Shown here: positions 8,978 to 63,631 of the stretch, piece by piece
How positions within the stretch are numbered: the first letter of the stretch is position 1
Layout: every line of letters begins with the position of its first letter
Source of the DNA: Longimicrobium sp.
GTDB taxonomy: Bacteria > Gemmatimonadota > Gemmatimonadetes > Longimicrobiales > Longimicrobiaceae
NCBI GenBank assembly: GCA_036377595.1
Contig: DASUYB010000107.1
Location: forward strand, 1-64,000
Reading direction: 5' to 3'
Length of the DNA: 64,000 nt
Notes under the pieces: generated by a model
What the model saw: only the letters and a program-made list of their open reading frames with translations
Database searches by the model: none
Told to the model about the DNA's origin: nothing
Position numbers and translations under genes: made by a program

Positions 8978-9068
8978 CTCACACGGAGGGAACGGAGGAA
9001 GCGGAGGACTCATGTGCAGTCCTCCGTTTCCTCCGTTTCCTCCGTTTCCTCCGTTCCCTCCGTGTGAG
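8978..9068 (+). repeat. CTCACACGGAGG hairpin repeat
   Basis: The arms CTCACACGGAGGGAACGGAG (8978 on) and the complement ending CCCTCCGTGTGAG (to 9068) pair. The inner part is a tandem run of TCCGTTTCC units, four on the right and fewer on the left. It lies 51 bp after the protease 1 stop and may end its transcript. It belongs to the TCTCAC family. Confidence 0.7.
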
Positions 9069-12668: not shown

Positions 12669-12935
12669 ATACCGGCTGCCGCAATTGATTGTGCATTCCG
12701 GTCGAATGTCATTCCGAGCGGCGCCGCTGCTCCGAATCTCCAATCGCGCTGATGCCGGGCGCCGCCCGAGGAATCTGTGGCATGCGTCCGAGCGAAAGGC
12801 GGCCTGTGGCTCGGGAGCCAGCCACAGATTCCTCAGGCGCCACGGCTTCGACATGGAGGACAGGGCGGCGCAGCGCCTTCGGAATGACATGCCTATTCCT
12901 TCCTCCAATGCACAGTCGATCCGGAGATTCGGTAT
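12669..12935. repeat. 260-270 bp palindromic repeat, copy 1
   Basis: It begins ATACCGGCTGCCGC and ends with the partial complement GGAGATTCGGTAT. Just inside are TTGTGCATT and AATGCACA. Nested pairs include GAATGTCATTCCGAG with CGGAATGACAT and GAGGAATCTGTGGC with GCCACAGATTCCTC. It is nearly identical to copies at 18415 and 23122. Reading frames across it are not genes. Confidence 0.8.
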
Positions 12936-18414: not shown

Positions 18415-18675
18415 ATACCGGCTGCCGCGATTGATTGTGCATTCCAATCAGATGTCATTCCGAGCGGCGCCGCTGCTCCGAACCTCCAATCGCGCTGATG
18501 CCAGGCGGCGCCCGAGGAATCTGTGGCATGCGTCCGAGCGATAGGCGGCCTGTGGCTCGGGAGCCGGCCACAGATTCCTCAGGCGCCACGGCTTTGGCAC
18601 GGAGAACAGGGCGGCGCAGCGCCTTCGGAATGACATTCCTTCGTCCAATGCACAGTTGATCCTGGAATCCGGTAT
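18415..18675. repeat. 260-270 bp palindromic repeat, copy 2
   Basis: Runs from ATACCGGCTGCCGC to ATCCGGTAT with the same nested palindromes as 12669-12935. It abuts the operator-like sites of protease 4. Confidence 0.8.
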
Positions 18676-18952: not shown

Positions 18953-20107
18953 ATGCGCCCACTCCGCTCGACGTCCCTTCTCGCACTCATGGCGGCCGCC
19001 GCGGCCTGCGCGGACGGTGGGCCCACGGCCGCGCGCGAGCCCCACGCCGCGCCCATCCTCGCCTCGCGCGGGGCGGCGGTCGCGGACGCGTTTCTCGTCG
19101 TCCTCGATGACGGCGCGGATCCCCGCGGGCTGGCAGCGGCGATGGGGATCGCGCCGCGCTTCGTCTACACCTCCGCCGTCCACGGCTTCGCGGCCACGCT
19201 CAACGCGGGGCAGCTGAACGCGCTGCGGCAGAATCCCGCGGTCGCGTACATCGAGCAGGACGCGGTCTATCACGCCGCCACCACGCAGCTCAACCCGCCG
19301 TGGGGGCTGGACCGCATCGACCAACGCAATCTCCCGCTCTCCCTGAGCTACTCCTACAACTCCACGGGAACGGGCGTCCGCGCGTACATCATCGACACCG
19401 GCATCCAGCACGACCACCCGCAGTTCGGCACCCGCGCGCAGAACGTGTACGACGCGTTCGGCGGCACGGGCGCGGACTGCAACGGCCACGGGACGCACGT
19501 CGCGGGAATCGTCGGGGCGGCGACGTACGGCGTCGCGAAGAACGTGCAGCTGCGCGGGGTGCGCGTGCTGAACTGCAGCGGCTCGGGCACCACCTCGGCG
19601 ATCGTGGCGGCCATCGACTGGGTGCGCGCCAACGCGGTCAGGCCCGCCGTCGCCAACCTTTCCCTGGGCGGGCCGTTCTCGTCCACGCTGAACACCGCGG
19701 TCACCAACCTGTGGAACGCGGGGATCTTCACCTCCGTGGTCGCGGGGAACGAGAACCGGGACGCGTGCACCGTCTCCCCCGCCAGCGCCACGGCGGTGAT
19801 GGCGGTGGCCGGCACCAACCGCGACGACACGCGGCTGAGCTCCGGCAACTTCGGCCCGTGCGTCGACATCTACGCGCCCGGCGGCTCCATCCCCTCCACC
19901 TGGATCGGCTCGGGGGCGGCGACCCTGAGCGGCAGCTCGATGGCGGCGCCGCACGTGGCGGGGGTGGCCGCGCTGTACAAGGCCACCTTCGGCGACGCCG
20001 CGTCGAGCACCATCGACACCTGGATCAAGACCAACGCCACCGCGGGCGTGGTGAAGAACGTTCCCGCGGGCACCCCGAACCGGCTGCTCTACAAGGCGTC
20101 GCTCTGA
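18953..20107 (+). CDS. S8 family serine protease 4, secreted
   Basis: The 384-residue protein has a signal peptide ending MAAAAACADG, an I9 propeptide (ADAFLVVLDDGADP ... VAYIEQDAVY), and catalytic D148, H179 and S329. The serine motif reads SGSSMAAPHVAG, a mild variant of GTSMASPH. All three catalytic positions equal those of protease 5 and both have the same length, so they are tandem duplicates. GAGGAGG lies just before ATG 18953. It probably shares a transcript with protease 5, 72 bp downstream. Confidence 0.92.
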   Translation: MRPLRSTSLLALMAAAAACADGGPTAAREPHAAPILASRGAAVADAFLVVLDDGADPRGLAAAMGIAPRFVYTSAVHGFAATLNAGQLNALRQNPAVAYIEQDAVYHAATTQLNPPWGLDRIDQRNLPLSLSYSYNSTGTGVRAYIIDTGIQHDHPQFGTRAQNVYDAFGGTGADCNGHGTHVAGIVGAATYGVAKNVQLRGVRVLNCSGSGTTSAIVAAIDWVRANAVRPAVANLSLGGPFSSTLNTAVTNLWNAGIFTSVVAGNENRDACTVSPASATAVMAVAGTNRDDTRLSSGNFGPCVDIYAPGGSIPSTWIGSGAATLSGSSMAAPHVAGVAALYKATFGDAASSTIDTWIKTNATAGVVKNVPAGTPNRLLYKASL

Positions 20108-20179: not shown

Positions 20180-21334
20180 ATGAAATCGATCCGCAATCTG
20201 CTGCTGGCCGGTGCCGCGCTGTCGCTGGCCGCCTGCGCCGACCAGGGCCCCACCGCCGCGGGGCCGCGGGCCAGCGCGCCGCTGCACATGGCGCGCGGCG
20301 CCGCGATCGACGGCAGCTACATCGTGGTGCTGAAGGAAGGCGCCGACCCGCGCTCGGTGGCGGCGGTGGCCGGCGTGAACCCGCACTTCGTGTACACCGC
20401 GGCGCTGAACGGCTTCTCGGCCGAGCTGAACCAGGGACAGCTGAACGCGCTGCAGCACAACCCCGGCGTGGACTACATCGAGCAGGACCAGGCGTACACC
20501 GTCGAGACGACGCAGTCCGGCGCCACCTGGGGGATCGACCGCATCGACCAGCGCAACCGGCCGCTGTCGGGCACGTACACCTACACCGCCAGCGGCTCGG
20601 GCGTGCGGGCGTACATCATCGACACCGGCATCCAGGCCAACCACCCGCAGTTCGGCACGCGCGCCAGCGCCGTGTACGACGCGCTGGGCGGCAGCGGCGC
20701 CGACTGCAACGGGCACGGCACGCACGTGGCCGGCACCATCGGGTCCACGACCTACGGCGTGGCCAAGAACGCGCTGCTGCGCGGCGTGCGGGTGCTGAAC
20801 TGCAGCGGCAGCGGCAGCACCAGCGGCATCATCGCGGGGATCGACTGGGTGCGGCTGAACCACATCAAGCCGGCCGTGGCCAACATGTCGCTGGGCGGCG
20901 GCCTCAGCTCGTCGCTGAACACGGCGGCCACCAACCTGGTGAACGCGGGCGTGTTCCTGGCCGTGGCCGCGGGGAACGAGAACCAGAACGCCTGCAACGT
21001 GTCGCCGGCCAGCGCGTCGGGCACGCTGACGGTGGCGTCGAGCACCAGCAGCGACGCCAAGTCCAGCTTCAGCAACTGGGGCGGCTGCGTGGACGTGTAC
21101 GCGCCCGGCAGCAGCATCACCAGCACCTGGATCAACAGCGGCACGGCCACCATCAGCGGCACCTCGATGGCCAGCCCGCACGCGGCCGGCGTGGCGGCGC
21201 TGTACAAGTCCGCGTTCGGCGACGCGGCCAGCAGCACGATCGTGTCGTGGATCATCAACAACTCCACGGCGAACGTGATCACCGGCAACGTCACCGGCAC
21301 GCCGAACCGCCTGCTCTACAAGAGCACGCTGTGA
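20180..21334 (+). CDS. S8 family serine protease 5, secreted
   Basis: The 384-residue protein has a lipobox (ALSLAACADQ), I9 propeptide (DGSYIVVLKEGADP ... VDYIEQDQAY), triad D148, H179 and S329 (HGTHVAGT, SGTSMASPHAAG). It is the tandem partner of protease 4. No operator-like site lies in the 72-bp space, which contains only a GGAGGACG ribosome binding site, so expression probably comes from the upstream promoter. A UUCG-capped terminator follows. Confidence 0.92.
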   Translation: MKSIRNLLLAGAALSLAACADQGPTAAGPRASAPLHMARGAAIDGSYIVVLKEGADPRSVAAVAGVNPHFVYTAALNGFSAELNQGQLNALQHNPGVDYIEQDQAYTVETTQSGATWGIDRIDQRNRPLSGTYTYTASGSGVRAYIIDTGIQANHPQFGTRASAVYDALGGSGADCNGHGTHVAGTIGSTTYGVAKNALLRGVRVLNCSGSGSTSGIIAGIDWVRLNHIKPAVANMSLGGGLSSSLNTAATNLVNAGVFLAVAAGNENQNACNVSPASASGTLTVASSTSSDAKSSFSNWGGCVDVYAPGSSITSTWINSGTATISGTSMASPHAAGVAALYKSAFGDAASSTIVSWIINNSTANVITGNVTGTPNRLLYKSTL

Positions 21335-23125: not shown

Positions 23126-23393
23126 CGGTTGCTGCAATTGATTGTGCATTCTGATCGGATGTCATTCCGAGCGGCGCCGCTGCTCCGAACCTTCAATCAC
23201 GACGATGTCGGGCGGCGCCCGAGGAATCTGTGGCATGCGTCCGAGCGATAGGCGGCCTGTGGCTCGGGAGCCGGCCACAGATTCCTCAGGCGCCACGGCT
23301 TCGCGTGGAGGACAGGGCGGCGCAGCGCCTTCGGAATGACATGCCTATGCCTGTTCCTTCCTCCAATGCACAGTTGATCCGGCGATTCGGTAT
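23122..23393. repeat. 260-270 bp palindromic repeat, copy 3
   Basis: Begins ACACCGGTTGCTGCAATTG and ends GCGATTCGGTAT, with the same nested pairs as copies 1 and 2. Its first bases overlap the end of the preceding element, so one may have inserted at the edge of the other. Confidence 0.8.
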
Positions 23394-23795: not shown

Positions 23796-24977
23796 TCAGC
23801 GCGCGCCGGCGGCGCGCGCGGCGGGCGCGGCGGCCGGACGGCCCAGCCGCTCCCGGAAGATCTCCACGAACCGCTCCGCGATCCCTTCCCACGAGTACGT
23901 CCGCGCCGTGTACCGCGCGGCCGAGCGCGACGCCGCCGCCAGCCGCGCCCGGTCGCCGCGGTACCGCGCCACCGCGTCGGCGAAGGCGGCCGCGTCGCGG
24001 CTGGGGACGAGGTGCCCGTTCTCGCCCTCGACGACCACGTCGCTGATCCCCTCCAGGTCCGCCGCCAGCACCGGCATCCCGCACATCCCCGCCTCGAGCA
24101 TCACCACCCCGAACCCCTCGATGTCGCCAGGAACGTGGATGTTGGGCATCACGAACAGGTCGCCGCCGCGGTAGAGGGTGCGCAGCGTCTCCTCGGGCAC
24201 CTTCCCCAGCAGCCGCGCGCGCCCCCGCAGCCCGTGGCGGTCGATGGCGGCCTGGATGCGCGGCGTCATCGGCCCCTCGCCCGTCACGAGATAGTGCACG
24301 TCATCGGGGAGACGCGGCATCACCTCGTCGGCGAACCACTGGAAGCCCTTGCGCTCCTGGTGGCGGCCCACGCTCACCAGCAGCAGCGCGTCGTCGGGGA
24401 TGGTCCCGGGCGACTCGCCGATGGCTCGCAGCAGCTCGCGGCGGGCCGCGGCGCGGTCGCGCGGCGGCTCGAACGAGGAGACGTCGACGCCGCAGGGAAT
24501 CACGTGCACGTGCGCCGGGTCCGCGCCGCGCGCCAGGCACTCGTCCGCCGTCGCGCGGCTGATGGGGAAGACCAGGTCGAGCGCGCGGAAGACGCGGCGC
24601 ACGAACCATTGGTACCCCGGCGTGGGGAGCGTCACGTCTCGGCCCACGGGGATGGCGGCCAGCAGCGCGCCCGTCCGCGCCAGCCGCTTCCGCAGCGCCA
24701 CCGCGAGCGACGCCGTCACCATTGACGAGAAGAGCACGACGTCGATGCGCTCCTCCCGGACCACGCGCGGGATGCGGCGCAGGAGGCCGGCCATGTAGCC
24801 GGGCATGCGGTAGGGCGTGGCCTTCCAGCTCGTCTCCAGCACCAGCCGCGAGAGGTGCAGGTCCGTGCGCTCGGCCAGCGCGGCGTGCAGGCCGGTGGCC
24901 ACGCGCTGCATGCCGCCCACGTTGCTGAGCGGCTGCCCGGGAAGGGGAAACGAGTGCGATACGTAGAGGATGCGCAA
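23796..24977 (-). CDS. Glycosyltransferase family 4 (GT-B fold)
   Basis: The 393-residue protein has the N-terminal acceptor domain (MRILYVSHSFPLPG ... NVGGMQRVATGLHAAL) and the donor-binding domain with VSVGRHQERKGFQWFADEV and the E-x7-E motif in EGFGVVMLEAGMCGMPVLAAD. Such enzymes transfer a sugar from a nucleotide donor to lipids, polysaccharides or small molecules in the cytoplasm. No polysaccharide cluster surrounds it, so its acceptor is unknown. Start ATG 24977. Confidence 0.88.
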   Translation of the reverse strand: MRILYVSHSFPLPGQPLSNVGGMQRVATGLHAALAERTDLHLSRLVLETSWKATPYRMPGYMAGLLRRIPRVVREERIDVVLFSSMVTASLAVALRKRLARTGALLAAIPVGRDVTLPTPGYQWFVRRVFRALDLVFPISRATADECLARGADPAHVHVIPCGVDVSSFEPPRDRAAARRELLRAIGESPGTIPDDALLLVSVGRHQERKGFQWFADEVMPRLPDDVHYLVTGEGPMTPRIQAAIDRHGLRGRARLLGKVPEETLRTLYRGGDLFVMPNIHVPGDIEGFGVVMLEAGMCGMPVLAADLEGISDVVVEGENGHLVPSRDAAAFADAVARYRGDRARLAAASRSAARYTARTYSWEGIAERFVEIFRERLGRPAAAPAARAAGAR

Positions 24978-25345
24978 ACCGCCGCCGTGCCGATGGGAGC
25001 CGGATGTTCCGATGCCGGATCAGTCTAGGCCGGCTGGAAAGATTGCGCCAGAACGACACCAGCCGGGACCCTCACCCGAAAACGTGAAGGGCCGAGACAA
25101 AACCGCCGTCTCGGCCCTTCACGTTTTCGACCTCTCCCGACAGCAGGAGAGGTGAACAGCAACAGCAACCAACCGCGGACGAAGTTTTCTGTTCTCCCCT
25201 CCCCTGCGAAGCGGGGGAGGGGTCGGGGGAGGGGGCCGCTCGCGGCCGCGCCGACGCTTCTCGCCACGGCGCAACGCCTTCCCACGCGCTGAGTTCTCCC
25301 CATCTGCAGTTCGGGAGACGAAGGCCGGGGGATGAGGAGCCGACC
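24978..25345. repeat. Repeat block including covarying hairpin A
   Basis: At 25077-25129, CGAAAACGTGAAGGGCCGAG (plus AC) and its exact complement form a 22-bp stem with a 9-base loop. A smaller hairpin CCTCTCC-CGACAGCA-GGAGAGG follows, then GTGAACAGCAACAGCAACC. At 25196-25240 and 25287-25335 lie two more members (CCCCTCCCCTGCGAAGCGGG; TCTCCCCATCTGCAGTTCGG). No gene is seen. Confidence 0.75.
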
Positions 25346-27916
25346 TCAGAACGACGTGCGGATGCCCAGCGTGAGGGTGCGGCCGGCGCGGATGGTCACG
25401 TTGTCGGGCTCGCCGAGCTGGCGGCCGAGGAGATTGTCGCCCGTCACCACCAGCCAGACGGTGGGCGCCACCTGGCGGTTGGTGGTCAGGCGCACGTTGG
25501 TGCTGCCGTCGTACTTGCGCCAGAACGCCCGCAGCGCGTCGCCGCTGAACTGCCGCCAGTCGGCGCCGGACCCGGCGAACGCCGTGGCCAGCGCCACGCG
25601 GTCGTAGTTGATCCAGTCCCACGCGCGGCTGGCGGTCAGCGCCGTGCTGAACCCGGGCCCCGTCCACTCCGCCGTGAGCCCGGCCGTGCGCGCGGGCACG
25701 GCCAGCATCCGGTCCCCCGCGCGCAGGTCGCCGCCGTAGCCGGTGGCCAGCCTGCGCACGCGGCTGTCGACGAACGCCAGCGAGCCGGTCAGCGCCAGCG
25801 CCCCCCGCCGCGCCGTGCCCTGCATCTCCCACCCGCGGTTGGCGATGGAGCCCACGTTCTGCGGCACGTAGCGCACGTGCTGCTCGGGCGAGCCGCCGCC
25901 GCGGGTGATGGTCTCCACCCCCACCACCACGTCCTGGATCAGTCCCGTGGCGCGCTGATCGAAGCGCGTCACCTGCAGCGAGAGCCGGTCGCCGAAGTAC
26001 ATCTCCGCGCCGAACTCGAACCCCGCCTGCGACTCGGGCTCCAGCGGAAAGCCGATGAAGCCGTGCTCGCCCACGCGCAGGCTCTCGCGCGCGGGCACCC
26101 GCGGCGGGCGGATGCCGCGGCCGTACGCGGCGCGCAGCTTCAGCTCCGCCGCACCGAGGTCGCGCACCCACGCCGCGCCGAGCATGGGCAGGGTGGAGAG
26201 CTCGAAGCCGCTGCCGAACGCGTCGTTGCGCTCGAAGCGCACCCCCGCCGTGCCGAACAGCGTGTTGCGCCACGCGCCGCTGGCCTGCGCCATCAGGCCG
26301 GTGTCGTTGCGCCAGTCCACCATGGGCATGGTGGTGGTGGTGTCGGGGTAGCGCCCGCCCTCCGGCAGCGTGCGATTCATCGTGAGTGTCGAGCGCTGGT
26401 GCAGGATCGAGTGCTCCAGCGCCACCGTCAGGTCCGCGGACGCATCGCCCCGCTCCAGCACGCGCGTGGTCCCCGCCGCGCGCAGCGTGGCCCGGTCGCC
26501 CGCGCCGGTGCCGGCGCGCAGGGTGGGGTCGACGGCCACGGGGAAGGGGCCGGTGTTCTCCGCCACGTGGCTGAGGCGGTAGCCGTCGATCCCCGCCAGC
26601 AGGTTCACCGTCCATCGCCCCGGCGCCAGCGCGGCGGCGCCGCCGGCGGTGTACTGCCGGATCCCCTGCCGCGGATACGCCGTCGCGGAGACCGCGTTCA
26701 CCGGCGACCCCTGCATCACCCACCGCTCTCCGCGCGCATTGGCCGCGGTCCCGGCGACCGGCGGCGCGGTGGTGTCGAAGGTGATCTCGCCGAGGATGGG
26801 ATTCACCCCCGCGCCGGCGGTCTGGTCGTAGAAGCGGAAGGTGCCGGTGAAGATGGCGTGCGGCGCCACCCATCGCCCCGTGGCCAGCGCGCTGACGGTG
26901 CGGCTGCCCGCGTCGGGATACACCGCGCCGCTACCGCCCACGGTGACCGCCGCGGCCATCGACCGCAGGTTGTCGCCCGTGCGGAAGGCCAGCCGCTCGC
27001 GGTGCGTGGGCACCAGCAGCGCGGCATAGTCGCTCGCGGCAACGCCCCCGTCGGTGCGGAACTCCACCCGCGTCGCCCCATCCGCGTCGTGGCGGGTGAC
27101 GATGTTGATCACCCCGCTGATCGCGTCCGACCCGTAGAGCGCGGCGCCCTGCGGCCCGCGGATCACCTCCACCCGCTCCACGAGATCGGGATCGATCTGC
27201 GTCAGCACCAGCGGGTTGGCCACCTCCACCCCGTCGATGTAGACTTTGGGATAGGTCGCCGCGAACGAGCTCGCGCCGCGCATGCTGCCGTACTGCGCCA
27301 GGAGGTCCGACGGCCCGCGGCGCCACACCCACACGGCGGGGACGGTGGCGTTCATCACCTCCGCCAGCGAGGTGGCCGAGCGCCGCGCCAGCTCCGGCCC
27401 CTCGAGCACGTCCAGGCCGACGGAGAGCGAGCGGCGGGCGGCGCCGGACGGGCTGCCCGTCACCACGATCCGCTCCAGCACGCTCTCGCGCTCGGTCTCC
27501 GGCGCGGACGCGGCCGCCGTCGCCGCCGGGCGCACGGGGGCGAGCACCACCTGCCCGGCGACCACCATCGGCTCCGCGCCCGCGCCGCCGACCAGCGCGA
27601 CGAGCGCATCCCCCAGCGGCACCCGCGCGGCGGAGACGCAGACGCGGCGGTCGAGGGGAAGGAGATCGGAGGAGTAGGAGAGCCGTACGCCCGAGACGGC
27701 GGAGAGACGGTCGAGCGCGTCGCGCAGGGGAACGTCGCGCGCGCGGAGGGTGACGGCGCGGTCCAGCGGCGGCGCCCACGCGCGGCTCTCCGCCGACGCG
27801 AGCGTGGCGGGGACGCACCCCATCTGCGCACGCGCCGGCATCGACGTCGCCGCGAGGAGAAGAAGGGCGGCGGGAAGCGCCACGCCCCGGGCGCGCATGG
27901 AGCGCGTCCGGGGCAT
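25346..27916 (-). CDS. TonB-dependent outer-membrane receptor with STN domain
   Basis: The 856-residue protein has a signal peptide (LPAALLLLAATSMPARAQ). The N-terminal STN domain (about 48-105: PPLDRAVTLRARDVPLRDALDRLSAVSGVRLSYSSD) contacts a FecR-type anti-sigma factor. A plug domain (RRSATSLAEVMNATVPAVWVWRRG ... YIDGVEVANPLVLTQIDPDLVERVEVIRGPQGAALYGSDAISGVINIVTR) and a 22-strand barrel end with RAGRTLTLGIRTSF. It imports a large nutrient or siderophore using TonB energy; the substrate is unknown. It lies 29 bp after fecR on the same strand, forming a surface-signalling unit with the sigma factor at 29176. ATG 27916 is chosen; 27898 is an alternative. Confidence 0.9.
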   Translation of the reverse strand: MPRTRSMRARGVALPAALLLLAATSMPARAQMGCVPATLASAESRAWAPPLDRAVTLRARDVPLRDALDRLSAVSGVRLSYSSDLLPLDRRVCVSAARVPLGDALVALVGGAGAEPMVVAGQVVLAPVRPAATAAASAPETERESVLERIVVTGSPSGAARRSLSVGLDVLEGPELARRSATSLAEVMNATVPAVWVWRRGPSDLLAQYGSMRGASSFAATYPKVYIDGVEVANPLVLTQIDPDLVERVEVIRGPQGAALYGSDAISGVINIVTRHDADGATRVEFRTDGGVAASDYAALLVPTHRERLAFRTGDNLRSMAAAVTVGGSGAVYPDAGSRTVSALATGRWVAPHAIFTGTFRFYDQTAGAGVNPILGEITFDTTAPPVAGTAANARGERWVMQGSPVNAVSATAYPRQGIRQYTAGGAAALAPGRWTVNLLAGIDGYRLSHVAENTGPFPVAVDPTLRAGTGAGDRATLRAAGTTRVLERGDASADLTVALEHSILHQRSTLTMNRTLPEGGRYPDTTTTMPMVDWRNDTGLMAQASGAWRNTLFGTAGVRFERNDAFGSGFELSTLPMLGAAWVRDLGAAELKLRAAYGRGIRPPRVPARESLRVGEHGFIGFPLEPESQAGFEFGAEMYFGDRLSLQVTRFDQRATGLIQDVVVGVETITRGGGSPEQHVRYVPQNVGSIANRGWEMQGTARRGALALTGSLAFVDSRVRRLATGYGGDLRAGDRMLAVPARTAGLTAEWTGPGFSTALTASRAWDWINYDRVALATAFAGSGADWRQFSGDALRAFWRKYDGSTNVRLTTNRQVAPTVWLVVTGDNLLGRQLGEPDNVTIRAGRTLTLGIRTSF

Positions 27917-27945
27917 CGTGGTGCCGAGCGGGGCCGCCCGTGGTC

Positions 27946-29028
27946 TCACGGCGATCGCGTCTCTCCTCGGGGGGATTCGATCACGGCGGTGTCGCCGCGC
28001 ATCCGCAGCTGGCCGCCCAGCGTGGCGGCGATGATGCGCAGCGCGCCGTCCGCCGTCTGGCCCTGGAAGTCGGCGGTGAGGTGCCGCCCCGCCAGCGCGG
28101 GGTCGTCCACGCGCAGGTTGACGCCGTACCACCGCTTCAGCTCCGCGGCCACGTCCGCCACCGTCGCGTCGCGGAAGACGAGGCGTCCCTGCGTCCACGC
28201 CACGTCCTCGGCCGTCGCCACGCCGCGCTGCACCGTCACGGCACCCGACACGACGGCGGCGCGGTCCCCCGCGTGCAGCAGCGTCGCCGCGCGGCCGGAC
28301 GGCGTCACCGCCACCGCGCCGGAGGTGACGACCACGCGCGTCCCCGCCGCCGCGTCGTCCGTCGCGACGGAGAACGCCGTCCCCACGTCGGTCACCCGCG
28401 CGGCGGGAGTGGAGACGGAGAACTCGTGCGCGTCGTCGTGCGTGACCTCGAAGTATGCCTGCCCGTGCAACTCGACCGAGCGCGCGGGCCGCCCGTAATC
28501 GCGCGCGACGGCCAGGCGGCTGGCGGGTCCGAGCACCACGCGGCTGCCGTCGGGAAGACTCACCTCCTGCCGCATCCCCGTGCGCGTGGCGTACTGGATC
28601 TGCCACGGCCCGCCACGGTTCGACAGCGCGCGCCAGAGCAGCGCCCCGCCGGCGAGCAGGACCAGCGCCGCGGCGATGCGCATCCACGCCGGCGTCCGCC
28701 ACCGCGCCGGCTGCGGAGCGATCGCGGGGCGGCGCGGGGGCGGCGCGTCCGCCACCCCGCCGCGCTCCACCGTCAGCGCGGGGCGGTCGCGGCGCGCCAT
28801 CACCGACGCCAGCGCCGCCTCCACGTCCACCTCCGGCGCGGCGTCGGCGCGCAGCCCCGCGAGCGCGCCGTCCAGCGCGGCCACCAGGGCGGCACGCTGG
28901 GGGTGCCCGTCGAGCTGGCGGCGTAGCGCGGCCTCCTCGTCCGGCGTGGCCTCGCCGGCGAGGGAGCGCGCGACGGCCCGCCACACGGCGTCGTCAGCGG
29001 GAGCGGAGGTGCGGTCCGGGTCGTTCAT
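27946..29028 (-). CDS. FecR-type anti-sigma factor
   Basis: The 360-residue protein has the FecR plan: a cytoplasmic N-terminal part that binds sigma (DDAVWRAVARSLAGEATPDEEAALRRQLDG), one membrane helix (about 126-144: WMRIAAALVLLAGGALLW), and the periplasmic FecR domain QEVSLPDGSRVVLGPASRLAVARDYGRPARSVELHGQAYFEVTHDDAHEFSV. The C-terminus (LKRWYGVNLRVDDPALAGRHLTADFQGQTADGALRIIAATL) is the secretin/TonB-like tail that meets the receptor STN domain. It transmits receptor occupancy to the sigma factor, which is divergently encoded 147 bp away. Confidence 0.9.
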   Translation of the reverse strand: MNDPDRTSAPADDAVWRAVARSLAGEATPDEEAALRRQLDGHPQRAALVAALDGALAGLRADAAPEVDVEAALASVMARRDRPALTVERGGVADAPPPRRPAIAPQPARWRTPAWMRIAAALVLLAGGALLWRALSNRGGPWQIQYATRTGMRQEVSLPDGSRVVLGPASRLAVARDYGRPARSVELHGQAYFEVTHDDAHEFSVSTPAARVTDVGTAFSVATDDAAAGTRVVVTSGAVAVTPSGRAATLLHAGDRAAVVSGAVTVQRGVATAEDVAWTQGRLVFRDATVADVAAELKRWYGVNLRVDDPALAGRHLTADFQGQTADGALRIIAATLGGQLRMRGDTAVIESPRGETRSP

Positions 29029-29175
29029 GCCCTGTGAGACACGCGAGTGCGGCGTCACCCTATCGATTTGTCTCGCCCGCTTCCTGCGGAGGTGCGAGGC
29101 GAGCCGTATCATGTTCGTCCGAAGAATCTCCGAGACGCCTGACCGGTGCCGCGCGTGCCTGAAGATACCTCCGCA

Positions 29176-29724
29176 ATGGACGAGCCGGAACTCCTCGCGC
29201 GGCTGCGCCGGGACGACGACGGCGCGTTCGCGGCCATCTTCCGCGCGCACTACGCCGCGCTGGTGGGCGCGGCGGAGCGGCTGCTGCGCGAGCGCGCGCC
29301 CGCGGAGGACGTGGCGCAGGAGGTTATGCTGGAGCTCTGGCGCCGCCGCCACACGCTGCCGCCGGACGTGTCGCTGCGCGCGTACCTGCACCAGTCCGCC
29401 CGCAACCGCGCGCTCAACCAGCTGCGCCACGGTCGCGTGGTGCGCGAGGGCGAGCCGCACATCCGCCCGCCCACGCCCCCGCCGCCGGCCGACGCCGACG
29501 CGCGCACGGGCGAGCTGGAGATGGCGGTGCGCGCCGCCGTGGCCGAGCTCCCCGACGAGGTGCGCGAGACCTTCCAGCTCAGCCGCGTGGACGCGCTTAC
29601 CTACCCCGAGATCGCCCGCGTGCTGGAGATCTCGGTGAAGACGGTGGAGGCGCGCATGGGCCGAGCGCTCAAGCTCCTCCGCGAGCGGCTGGCGCCCTGG
29701 CTGCCGGAGGGCGGCGGGTGGTGA
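29176..29724 (+). CDS. FecI-like ECF sigma factor
   Basis: The 182-residue protein starts at ATG 29176. Region 2 is DDGAFAAIFRAHYAALVGAAERLL ... AEDVAQEVMLELWRRR, and region 4 is ELPDEVRETFQLSRVDALTYPEIARVLEISVKTVEARMGRALKLLRERL with a helix-turn-helix. GTG 29146 would add ten residues not seen in the family. It should direct transcription of the divergent fecR-receptor genes when the receptor is occupied. The 147-bp gap should hold the target promoter, but I could not identify it. Confidence 0.9.
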   Translation: MDEPELLARLRRDDDGAFAAIFRAHYAALVGAAERLLRERAPAEDVAQEVMLELWRRRHTLPPDVSLRAYLHQSARNRALNQLRHGRVVREGEPHIRPPTPPPPADADARTGELEMAVRAAVAELPDEVRETFQLSRVDALTYPEIARVLEISVKTVEARMGRALKLLRERLAPWLPEGGGW

Positions 29725-30087
29725 TCTGGAGATTTCGGATCACAACGAGATGACGGCGGGGGCGCTTCGCGCCGGGGCCCTCATCCCCCCGACCCCCTTC
29801 TCCCGAATTGCCGGGAGAAGGGGGAGACCTCAGCGCGGGGAGGGGCTGCGGAGCTGGTTGAGACGCATCTTCCCGCCACGAGTGGCCCCCTCCCCCGGCC
29901 CCTCCCCCGCTGCGCAGGGGAGGGGAGAACGGAAGCGCGGGCCGAGTTTAGTTGCAGTTGCAGTTCACCTCTCCTGCTGTCGGGAGAGGTCGAAAATCTG
30001 GAAGGGCGAAGACGGGGGTTTTGTCTTCGCCCTTCCAGATTTTCGGGTGAGGGCCTCTCGGCCGCGACCGCACGGATGCGAGGTACG
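29725..30087. repeat. Repeat block including covarying hairpin B
   Basis: At 29991-30045, CGAAAATCTGGAAGGGCGAA (plus GAC) and its exact complement form a 23-bp stem with a 9-base loop. It is the reversed counterpart of hairpin A at 25077, with different arms. Beside it are GTTGCAGTTGCAGTTCACC and the CTCTCC-TGCTGTCG-GGAGAG hairpin. At 29785-29850 and 29885-29925 lie two further members. No gene is seen. Confidence 0.75.
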
Positions 30088-31410
30088 CTACGGCCTCCCC
30101 CCCGCCCCCAGATCCTCCGTCTCTCCCCGTCCCCCGATCGGCTCCTCGACCTGGGCGGCGATGGCGGCTCGGGGATGCTCGGCGTTCCACGGGGCGATCA
30201 GCGGCAGCAGGAGGATGCCGGGAACCGCGAGCAGCAGGGTGATCAGGAAGAACTGCGGCCACCCCATGTGCTCGGCCAGGCGCCCCGCCGGCGCGCCCAG
30301 CCAGTCGCGCCCGAAGGCCATGAAGCTGCTCAGCAGCGCGTACTGCGTGGCGGAGAAGCGGGGATTGGCCAGGCTCATCATGTACGCCACCAGCGCCGCC
30401 GTCCCCGTCCCCTGGAAGAAGTTCTCCAGCACCACGGCGCCGATCATCAGCGCGTGGTTGCCGGGGTTCAGCGCCAGCACGTAGTAGCTCACGTTCACGG
30501 CGGACTGCAGCACGCCCAGGATCCAGAGCGAGCGCACCAGCCCGATCCGCGCCTGCACCGCCCCACCCGCGATCACCCCGACGATGGTGGCGGCGAGCCC
30601 GATCACCCCCTGCACCTCGCCGATCTGCGTCTGCGTGAAGCCGGCCTCGAGCAGGAACGGCGTGGCCATGTTGTTCAGCACCGCGTCGCCCAGCTTGTAC
30701 AGCACGATGAAGGCGAGGATGGGCGCGGCGTAGACTCCGGCGCGCCGCCAGAAATCCACGAACGGCTGCACGATGGCCTGCCCCAGCCCCGGCGCGCGCA
30801 TCACCCGCTCGGGCTCGGGCGCCATCAGCGTGCCCACGATGCCGGGGATCATCAGCGCCGCCATCAGCGCGTACACCGCGCGCCAGCCGATCTGGTCCGC
30901 CAGGATGAAGCCCAGCCCGCCGACCACCAGCATCCCGACGCGGTAGCCCAGCACGCCGATGGCCGCGCCCGCGCCCAGCTCCTCCTCGCGCAGGACGTCG
31001 ATCTTGTACGCGTCGAAGGCGATGTCCTGCGTGGCGCTGAAGAAGGCGATGATGATGGCGTTGATCGCGACGAGCTGCAGCCCCGCCCGCGGCTCGTGCG
31101 TCGCCATCCAGCCGATGGCCAGGAGGAGGCCGATCTGCGTGGCCAGCAGCCACCCCCGCCGCCGCCCGAGAATGGGGATCGGGAGCGCGTCGATCAACGG
31201 CGACCAGAGGAACTTGAAGGTATACGGCCAGGAGAGGAGGGAGATGTAGCCGATGGTGGCGAGATCGACCTGCTCCAGCTTCATCCAGGCCTGGAGGTCC
31301 TTGCTGGTGAGGTAGAGGGGGAGCCCCGACGCGAAGCCGAGCAGGAGGATGGACGCCATCTTCCGGCTCGCGAACACCTGCCCGATCCCCGCCGCCCGCC
31401 GCTCCGCCAC
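30088..31410 (-). CDS. ampG: AmpG-like muropeptide permease (MFS)
   Basis: The 440-residue protein has about twelve membrane helices. It shows the AmpG start SILLLGFASGLPLYLTSKDLQAWM, SLLSWPYTFKFLWSPLIDALP, LGRRRGWLLATQ and FFSATQDIAFDAYKIDVL. AmpG brings 1,6-anhydro-muropeptides released from the wall into the cytoplasm. It is the last gene of the recycling region, 303 bp from nagZ across a repeat-filled gap, so it may have its own promoter. The C-terminal 25 residues are hydrophilic. Confidence 0.88.
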   Translation of the reverse strand: MAERRAAGIGQVFASRKMASILLLGFASGLPLYLTSKDLQAWMKLEQVDLATIGYISLLSWPYTFKFLWSPLIDALPIPILGRRRGWLLATQIGLLLAIGWMATHEPRAGLQLVAINAIIIAFFSATQDIAFDAYKIDVLREEELGAGAAIGVLGYRVGMLVVGGLGFILADQIGWRAVYALMAALMIPGIVGTLMAPEPERVMRAPGLGQAIVQPFVDFWRRAGVYAAPILAFIVLYKLGDAVLNNMATPFLLEAGFTQTQIGEVQGVIGLAATIVGVIAGGAVQARIGLVRSLWILGVLQSAVNVSYYVLALNPGNHALMIGAVVLENFFQGTGTAALVAYMMSLANPRFSATQYALLSSFMAFGRDWLGAPAGRLAEHMGWPQFFLITLLLAVPGILLLPLIAPWNAEHPRAAIAAQVEEPIGGRGETEDLGAGGRP

Positions 31411-60181: not shown

Positions 60182-60206
60182 TCGCGCTGAACTGAAAAAC
60201 AGAAAG

Positions 60207-60295
60207 TCTCACGCAGAGTCAGCAGGGTCAGCAGAGAACTGAAAGCGGTTCTCTCTGCTGACCCTGCTGACTCTGAGTGAGATAATTTCTTTTTT
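60207..60295 (+). terminator. TCTCAC-family hairpin with T run after lptD
   Basis: TCTCACGCAGAGTCAGCAGG (60207 on) pairs with its complement ending at 60282. The inner units GTCAGCAGGGTCAGCAGAG mirror CTCTGCTGACCCTGCTGAC. TAATTTCTTTTTT follows, 26 bp after the lptD stop. Confidence 0.8.
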
Positions 60296-63535: not shown

Positions 63536-63554
63536 GACAAATCCCCAAAAGAAA

Positions 63555-63623
63555 GTCTCACGCAGAGGGCGCAGAGGCCGCAGAGGTAAGTTCTCTGCGA
63601 CCTCTGCGGCCTCTGCGTGAGAC
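63555..63623 (+). terminator. TCTCAC-family hairpin after the lipoprotein pair
   Basis: GTCTCACGCAGAGG (63555-63568) pairs with CCTCTGCGTGAGAC (63610-63623). The inner units GCGCAGAGGCCGCAGAGG mirror CCTCTGCGGCCTCTGCG. It lies between two convergent genes and could end both. Confidence 0.75.
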
Positions 63624-63631
63624 TTTATCCG

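Follow-up and report, generated by a model that had tools for sequence, protein, structure and literature searches.

The window (the whole stretch of DNA analysed, 64,000 nucleotides, G000:C107:1-64000, from a G000 assembly of 7.2 Mb in 208 contigs) contains two hairpins with 100% complementary arms, one with arms of 22 nt (25077-25098 and 25108-25129, copy 1) and one with arms of 23 nt (29991-30013 and 30023-30045, copy 2), both with a spacer of 9 nt. They lie in opposite orientation and share the flanks CCTCACC and ACCTCTCCCGACAGCAGGAGAGGT, as had been pointed out in a sequence-only reading of this DNA and was confirmed here. A perfect palindrome of 22-23 bp with a 9-nt loop is beyond chance expectation for 64 kb, and the joint right flank, TTTTCGACCTCTCCCGACAGCAGGAGAGGT, is present at two places in the window and was never seen in 100 shuffles.

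Anatomy and distribution of the repeat

The two hairpins represent a single dispersed two-hairpin repeat, which consists of CCTCACC, a hypervariable hairpin of 15-24 bp (H1), a constant short hairpin (H2, ACCTCTCC...GGAGAGGT) and a tail, GAACTGCAACT (Table 1). The H1 stem has the frame CGAAAA..GAC/GTC..TTTTCG and a loop close to AAAACTGCC, while H2, with a loop that is either CGACAGCA or CAAAACAGCCTG-like, is followed by the tail GAACTGCAACTGCAACT; in many copies the motif AAACNGCC is common to the loops of H1 and H2. When folded as RNA from the plus strand of the element the window copies reach a z of about -9.5 relative to shuffles, with H1 and H2 side by side, and the minus-strand RNA gains a few extra closing pairs on H1. 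Other palindromic modules, CTCCCCTCCCCTGCGCAGCGGGGGAGGGG and CTCCCCCTTCTCCCG..CGGGAGAAGGGGG, continue from many copies, and in L005, L009 and L037 the tail GAACTGCAACT is followed just 3' of the element by an inverted copy, AGTTGCAGTTC, so that a third hairpin may form.

Table 1. Positions in the window of the two copies and of related repeats
Feature	Position	Strand	Remarks
Copy 1, 5' flank	25070..25076	+	CCTCACC; common to nearly all copies
Copy 1, H1	25077..25129	+	hypervariable 22-bp hairpin, loop AAAACCGCC
Copy 1, H2	25130..25153	+	constant hairpin ACCTCTCC-CGACAGCA-GGAGAGGT
Copy 1, 3' tail	25154..25170	+	GAACAGCAACAGCAACC
Copy 2, 5' flank	30046..30052	-	CCTCACC
Copy 2 (L012), H1	29991..30045	-	hypervariable 23-bp hairpin, loop AAAACCCCC
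Copy 2, H2	29967..29990	-	constant hairpin
Copy 2, 3' tail	29950..29966	-	GAACTGCAACTGCAACT
L021	4283..4322	+	related repeat without H1, CCCTCACCCCCCGGCC-CCCTCTCCCGACAGCAGGAGAGGG
L022	4765..4804	-	related repeat without H1, form as L021

Copies were selected by the flank pattern CCTCACC...ACCTCTCC only, pairing not being required, and 67 distinct ones were obtained, 47 from G000 and 20 from the congener G003. A covariance model built from 16 copies contributed further clear copies, three from G000 and four from G003, so that about 50 and about 24 copies, or about 75 together, are present in the two genomes; the same search revealed weak or remote relatives in the congeners G001 and G006, and the remaining six congeners gave no match. 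A less dense search, covering 249 genomes of the phylum with 18 candidates scored per genome, matched G000 alone and missed even G003, which makes it a weak negative. Scanning the genome collection for GACAAAACTGCCGTC gave matches scattered over unrelated bacteria at the chance level for 15 bases, and a literature search on CCCTCTCCC gave nothing relevant.

Based on rough gene calls the copies in G000 and G003 are nearly all intergenic. A gene 3' end faces the element on at least one side in 60 of 64 copies, the remaining four being located between divergent genes, and where the upstream gene runs with the element its stop codon lies a median of 46 nt upstream; of the 207 pairs of adjacent genes at these loci, 34 are divergent. 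Judged from position, this placement suits a putative terminator or 3'-end role and also simple tolerance of insertions.

In several congeners the frame CCTCACC-slot-CCTCTCCC is found with other hairpins filling the slot, in 13 to 113 matches per genome (G001, G002, G004, G005 and G007). The slot hairpin is GGCAGC/GCTGCC in G004 and G007 and, with a fixed mismatch, GGCGCCGC/GCGTCGCC in most G001 copies, while G002 has other hairpins; among the copies listed, which leave out the G005 sequences, the hairpins of any one genome are almost alike. The gene at 30088-31410 has at its 3' end a long H1 in G000 and G003, a short H1 in G001 and a separate two-hairpin element in G009, and no such element was found there in G004, G006 or G007. 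The set of hairpin repeats at gene ends thus changes within the genus.

Other repeated sequences were seen in the window as well. These include long inverted repeats of GCAGAG units (GTCTCACGCAGAG..., 60195-60294 and 63552-63626) and a hairpin repeat, CTCACACGGAGGGAACGGAGG..., at 8978-9068 that also occurs in L374 (about 2620-2710). According to their translations, two adjacent and similar genes of 384 codons each (18953-20107 and 20180-21334) encode subtilisin-like proteases and are probably a tandem duplication.

Pairing and variation of the H1 arms

All 67 copies selected by their flanks fold into H1, 48 of them without any mismatch or bulge. The observation that arm differences between the two window copies are each matched on the other arm thereby holds throughout the genome, while the pairing is not absolute: unpaired positions in other copies, named in the sequence-only reading as evidence against it, occur to a limited extent, with a mismatch or bulge in 19 of the 67 copies and with one-sided intermediates. 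Non-Watson-Crick pairs make up 24 of 1,450 H1 pairs (a mismatch level of 1.66%), comprising 14 A-C or C-A, four T-G and six others, and bulges amount to two nucleotides, both within the A tract. Read on the plus strand the wobble pairs are four T-G and no G-T, and on the minus strand at most 14. The excess of A-C over G-T (14:4, p = 0.03) is weak and would fit either a minus-strand RNA or strand-biased mutation.

In the alignment of 16 copies, two-sided changes were found in 14 of 23 H1 pairs (73 cells) together with no one-sided standard change, and H2 in the same copies was invariant except for one cell. The covariation score of 0.417 was far above that of shuffled (0.113 +/- 0.014) and slid (at most 0.095) controls. 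Copies with variant flanks, which were found later, are more decayed than the flank-selected ones; L308 has three A-C mismatches, L314 a 3-nt insertion in one arm, and in L310 the right arm is gone. Arm equality is consequently not absolute: mismatches do arise, and it is kept or restored. The short H1 of G001 and G002 retains fixed mismatches in many copies, indicating that arms are not equalised in every case and that stem length or some other factor must decide whether they are.

Unlike H1, a palindromic repeat of about 80 nt (CGCCCGAGGAATCTGTGGC...), present three times in the window (12763-12839, 18507-18587 and 23214-23294), has arms that are 82-83% complementary and not equalised, with nearly the same mismatches in all three copies.

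Near-identical perfect arms were found to differ by a single paired substitution six times, twice by a transversion, and by a paired indel of 1-2 nt three times. Perfect arms differing by one to three pairs show 53 paired transitions and 48 paired transversions, counted over arm pairs so that the events are not independent. Neither transversions nor indels can pass through a wobble intermediate. In L312 the arms are identical to those of L014 and L044 but the loop is GGCAGTACC, the reverse complement of GGTACTGCC, where the sister copies have GGTACTGCT; this is the only loop inversion among the approximately 75 copies. Comparisons between neighbours gave a ratio of two-sided to one-sided changes of 153:31, which was dropped as a decisive test since slow compensatory evolution with short-lived intermediates can give the same ratio, and the arguments below are instead based on mutation type, indels, inversion and rate.

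Turnover at homologous sites and origin of the matched arms

At four homologous sites the stems of G000 and G003 differ from each other and are each matched within themselves: L012 (window copy 2)/L237, L029/L242, L009/L243 and L248/L227. In a minimal alignment of their arms 16 of 81 pairs are changed, in addition to paired gaps, and the genes beside the elements have a divergence of 0.28 (588/2,112) at 4-fold sites. Where G000 has window copy 1, the corresponding site in G003 is occupied by other repeats, and a repeat related to CTCACACGGAGGGAACGGAGG replaces the H1-H2 element at the G000 site homologous to L235 of G003.

The stems cluster by genome, the nearest neighbour coming from the same genome in 53.8 cases compared with 38.4 under permutation (0/1000 as high), and at some homologous sites the H2 type differs too; whole elements have therefore probably been exchanged. 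Identical arms are found at non-homologous sites (L243 and L301, and window copy 2 and L006 on G000:C89). A rate model assuming weak mutation, independent point mutations and selection set to yield 1.66% mismatches gave an expectation of 0.55 changed pairs at a neutral distance of 0.35 and of 1.7 at 0.8, whereas 16 were observed, a number that would require a neutral distance of more than 7, although the model may overstate the turnover at a site because exchange of whole elements makes the orthology of single elements uncertain.

The sequence-only reading had left a choice between selection on the fold and a copying process that equalises the arms. As an alternative of the two it is supported, and neither branch is proven, but four results favour copying: the paired transversions and indels, the inverted loop, the near absence of G-U pairs and a turnover far above the point-mutation model. 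Arm-to-arm copying of DNA is the best supported, though not proven, cause of the matched variation, and on balance we regard it as probable that the family is a REP-like dispersed repeat, located mainly next to gene 3' ends, in which the arms are kept equal by such copying and the copies are exchanged within the genome. The flanks and H2 stay constant; the long H1 would extrude, or stall replication, and DNA synthesis would switch template between the arms; we infer that a template switch during replication is the agent. A mutation or small indel in one arm would thereby be erased or written into the other, leaving H1 a fast-changing yet almost perfect palindrome, and a rare switch would invert the loop. 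Stems could then spread within the genome by whole-element exchange between loci, either by ectopic conversion or by new insertion.

Selection on an RNA fold, with H1 (perhaps together with H2) acting as terminator, 3'-end stabiliser or small RNA and the arms changing by compensatory point mutation, we consider rather unlikely as the full explanation. The strong covariation and the placement at gene 3' ends both speak for it, the AAAA/TTTT outer stem would suit a bidirectional terminator, the non-Watson-Crick pairs lean towards minus-strand G-U types and the 153:31 ratio is compatible with a slow version of it. It accounts poorly, however, for the scarcity of wobble pairs on either strand, for paired transversions that are about as common as transitions, for paired indels and for the inverted loop of L312, its rate model is off by roughly ten-fold or more, and a terminator scan of window positions 24800-30400 flagged neither hairpin. 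From sequence, selection on the RNA fold (perhaps of a terminator) is possible yet not needed, and selection on the fold may act alongside arm copying.

Pairing might instead be selected at mobilisation, if a single-strand DNA transposase needs a well-paired H1, so that copies start out perfect and mismatches represent later decay. We find this improbable, even though the copies are dispersed and have sharp flanks, both G000 and G003 have Y1 transposase genes, and the flank-degenerate copies L054, L308, L309 and L310 are richer in mismatches or broken ends. None of the Y1 genes examined has the repeat in its flanks, elements whose H1 is short and often mismatched have spread to 55-113 copies in congeners, and both the joint change of the two arms in an active lineage and the inverted loop are left unexplained.

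Exchange of whole elements as the sole cause, by ectopic gene conversion or insertion turnover, with the covariation reflecting swapped hairpins, is very improbable: the clustering by genome, the shared arms at non-homologous sites and the differing H2 types agree with it, but exchange moves variants and does not create them, and it is refuted by the single paired substitutions, paired indels and inverted loop, while it may still contribute.

Comparison with known repeats and RNAs

The repeat resembles REP elements, REPINs and BIMEs (PMC3733652, PMC2817692, PMC3116915) in being a short, dispersed and mostly extragenic palindrome in several tens of copies near gene ends, and many such copies are present in both genomes. 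It differs from them in that the H1 stem sequence is not conserved, that no RAYT neighbour was found and that the GTAG/CGTC tag is missing. REP elements are recognised by an unpaired GTAG or CGTC tetranucleotide at one end of the stem (PMC3733652), while in the copies listed CCTCACC precedes the base of the H1 stem and ACCTCTCC follows it. Y1_Tnp (PF01797) is encoded by two genes in G000 and has six matches in G003, but RAYT genes were rejected as carriers, the element being absent from the seven G000/G003 Y1_Tnp loci checked, including about 1.5 kb on each side. REP-like dispersed repeat is accordingly a well supported description, with the tested marks of REP proper lacking.

On the minus strand the order of parts is the same as in whalefall-1 RNA (Rfam RF01762), with a CUCUCC/GGAGAG hairpin, a second hairpin and GGGUGAGG. 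Most of the long H1 is an insertion relative to that model, though, and the match stays below threshold, with scores of 29.8 and 30.0 bits where the gathering cut-off is 37; no match to whalefall-1 over the cut-off was found in 61 genomes. Sub-threshold whalefall-1 matches of G000 outside the family belong to another two-hairpin repeat with different flanks (L367 and L371-L373 at G000:C126:7500, C128:14495, C128:14700 and C136:59177), which has the frame CCCTCTCCC and the H2 GTCCCTCCCCC-AAAACCGACT-GGGGGAGGGAC. Matches to Rfam microRNAs were weak and all far below the cut-off, as any perfect hairpin gives. A more speculative idea, which we hold to be doubtful indeed, is that H1 is renewed by an active, error-prone hairpin copying (e.g. 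snap-back synthesis from one arm each time the element is copied) so that new perfect 22-bp duplexes keep arising, and that the covariation of some similarly built predicted noncoding RNAs, for example whalefall-1, results from such a DNA process and not from RNA function.

A functional RNA fold is usually considered best proven by covariation, and this repeat family would easily pass a test of that kind, yet the paired transversions, paired indels, inverted loop and scarcity of wobble pairs point to copying of DNA between the arms. Template switching has been reported to homogenise the arms of inverted repeats and to invert spacers, the latter seen only with arms longer than 9 bp (PMC8604942), to make quasipalindromes in E. 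coli more perfect (PMC7202029), and has been proposed to create and maintain RNA hairpins (PMC8794818). The likeness to these cases lies in the matched changes of both arms and in the loop inverted between unchanged arms, found in one copy (L312 versus L014/L044). Those studies describe individual events, at scattered sites or in reporters, whereas here the outcome is visible at once in an entire family of about 75 copies, which, with constant flanks and H2 as an internal control, offers a natural test case for RNA selection versus template switching in bacteria.
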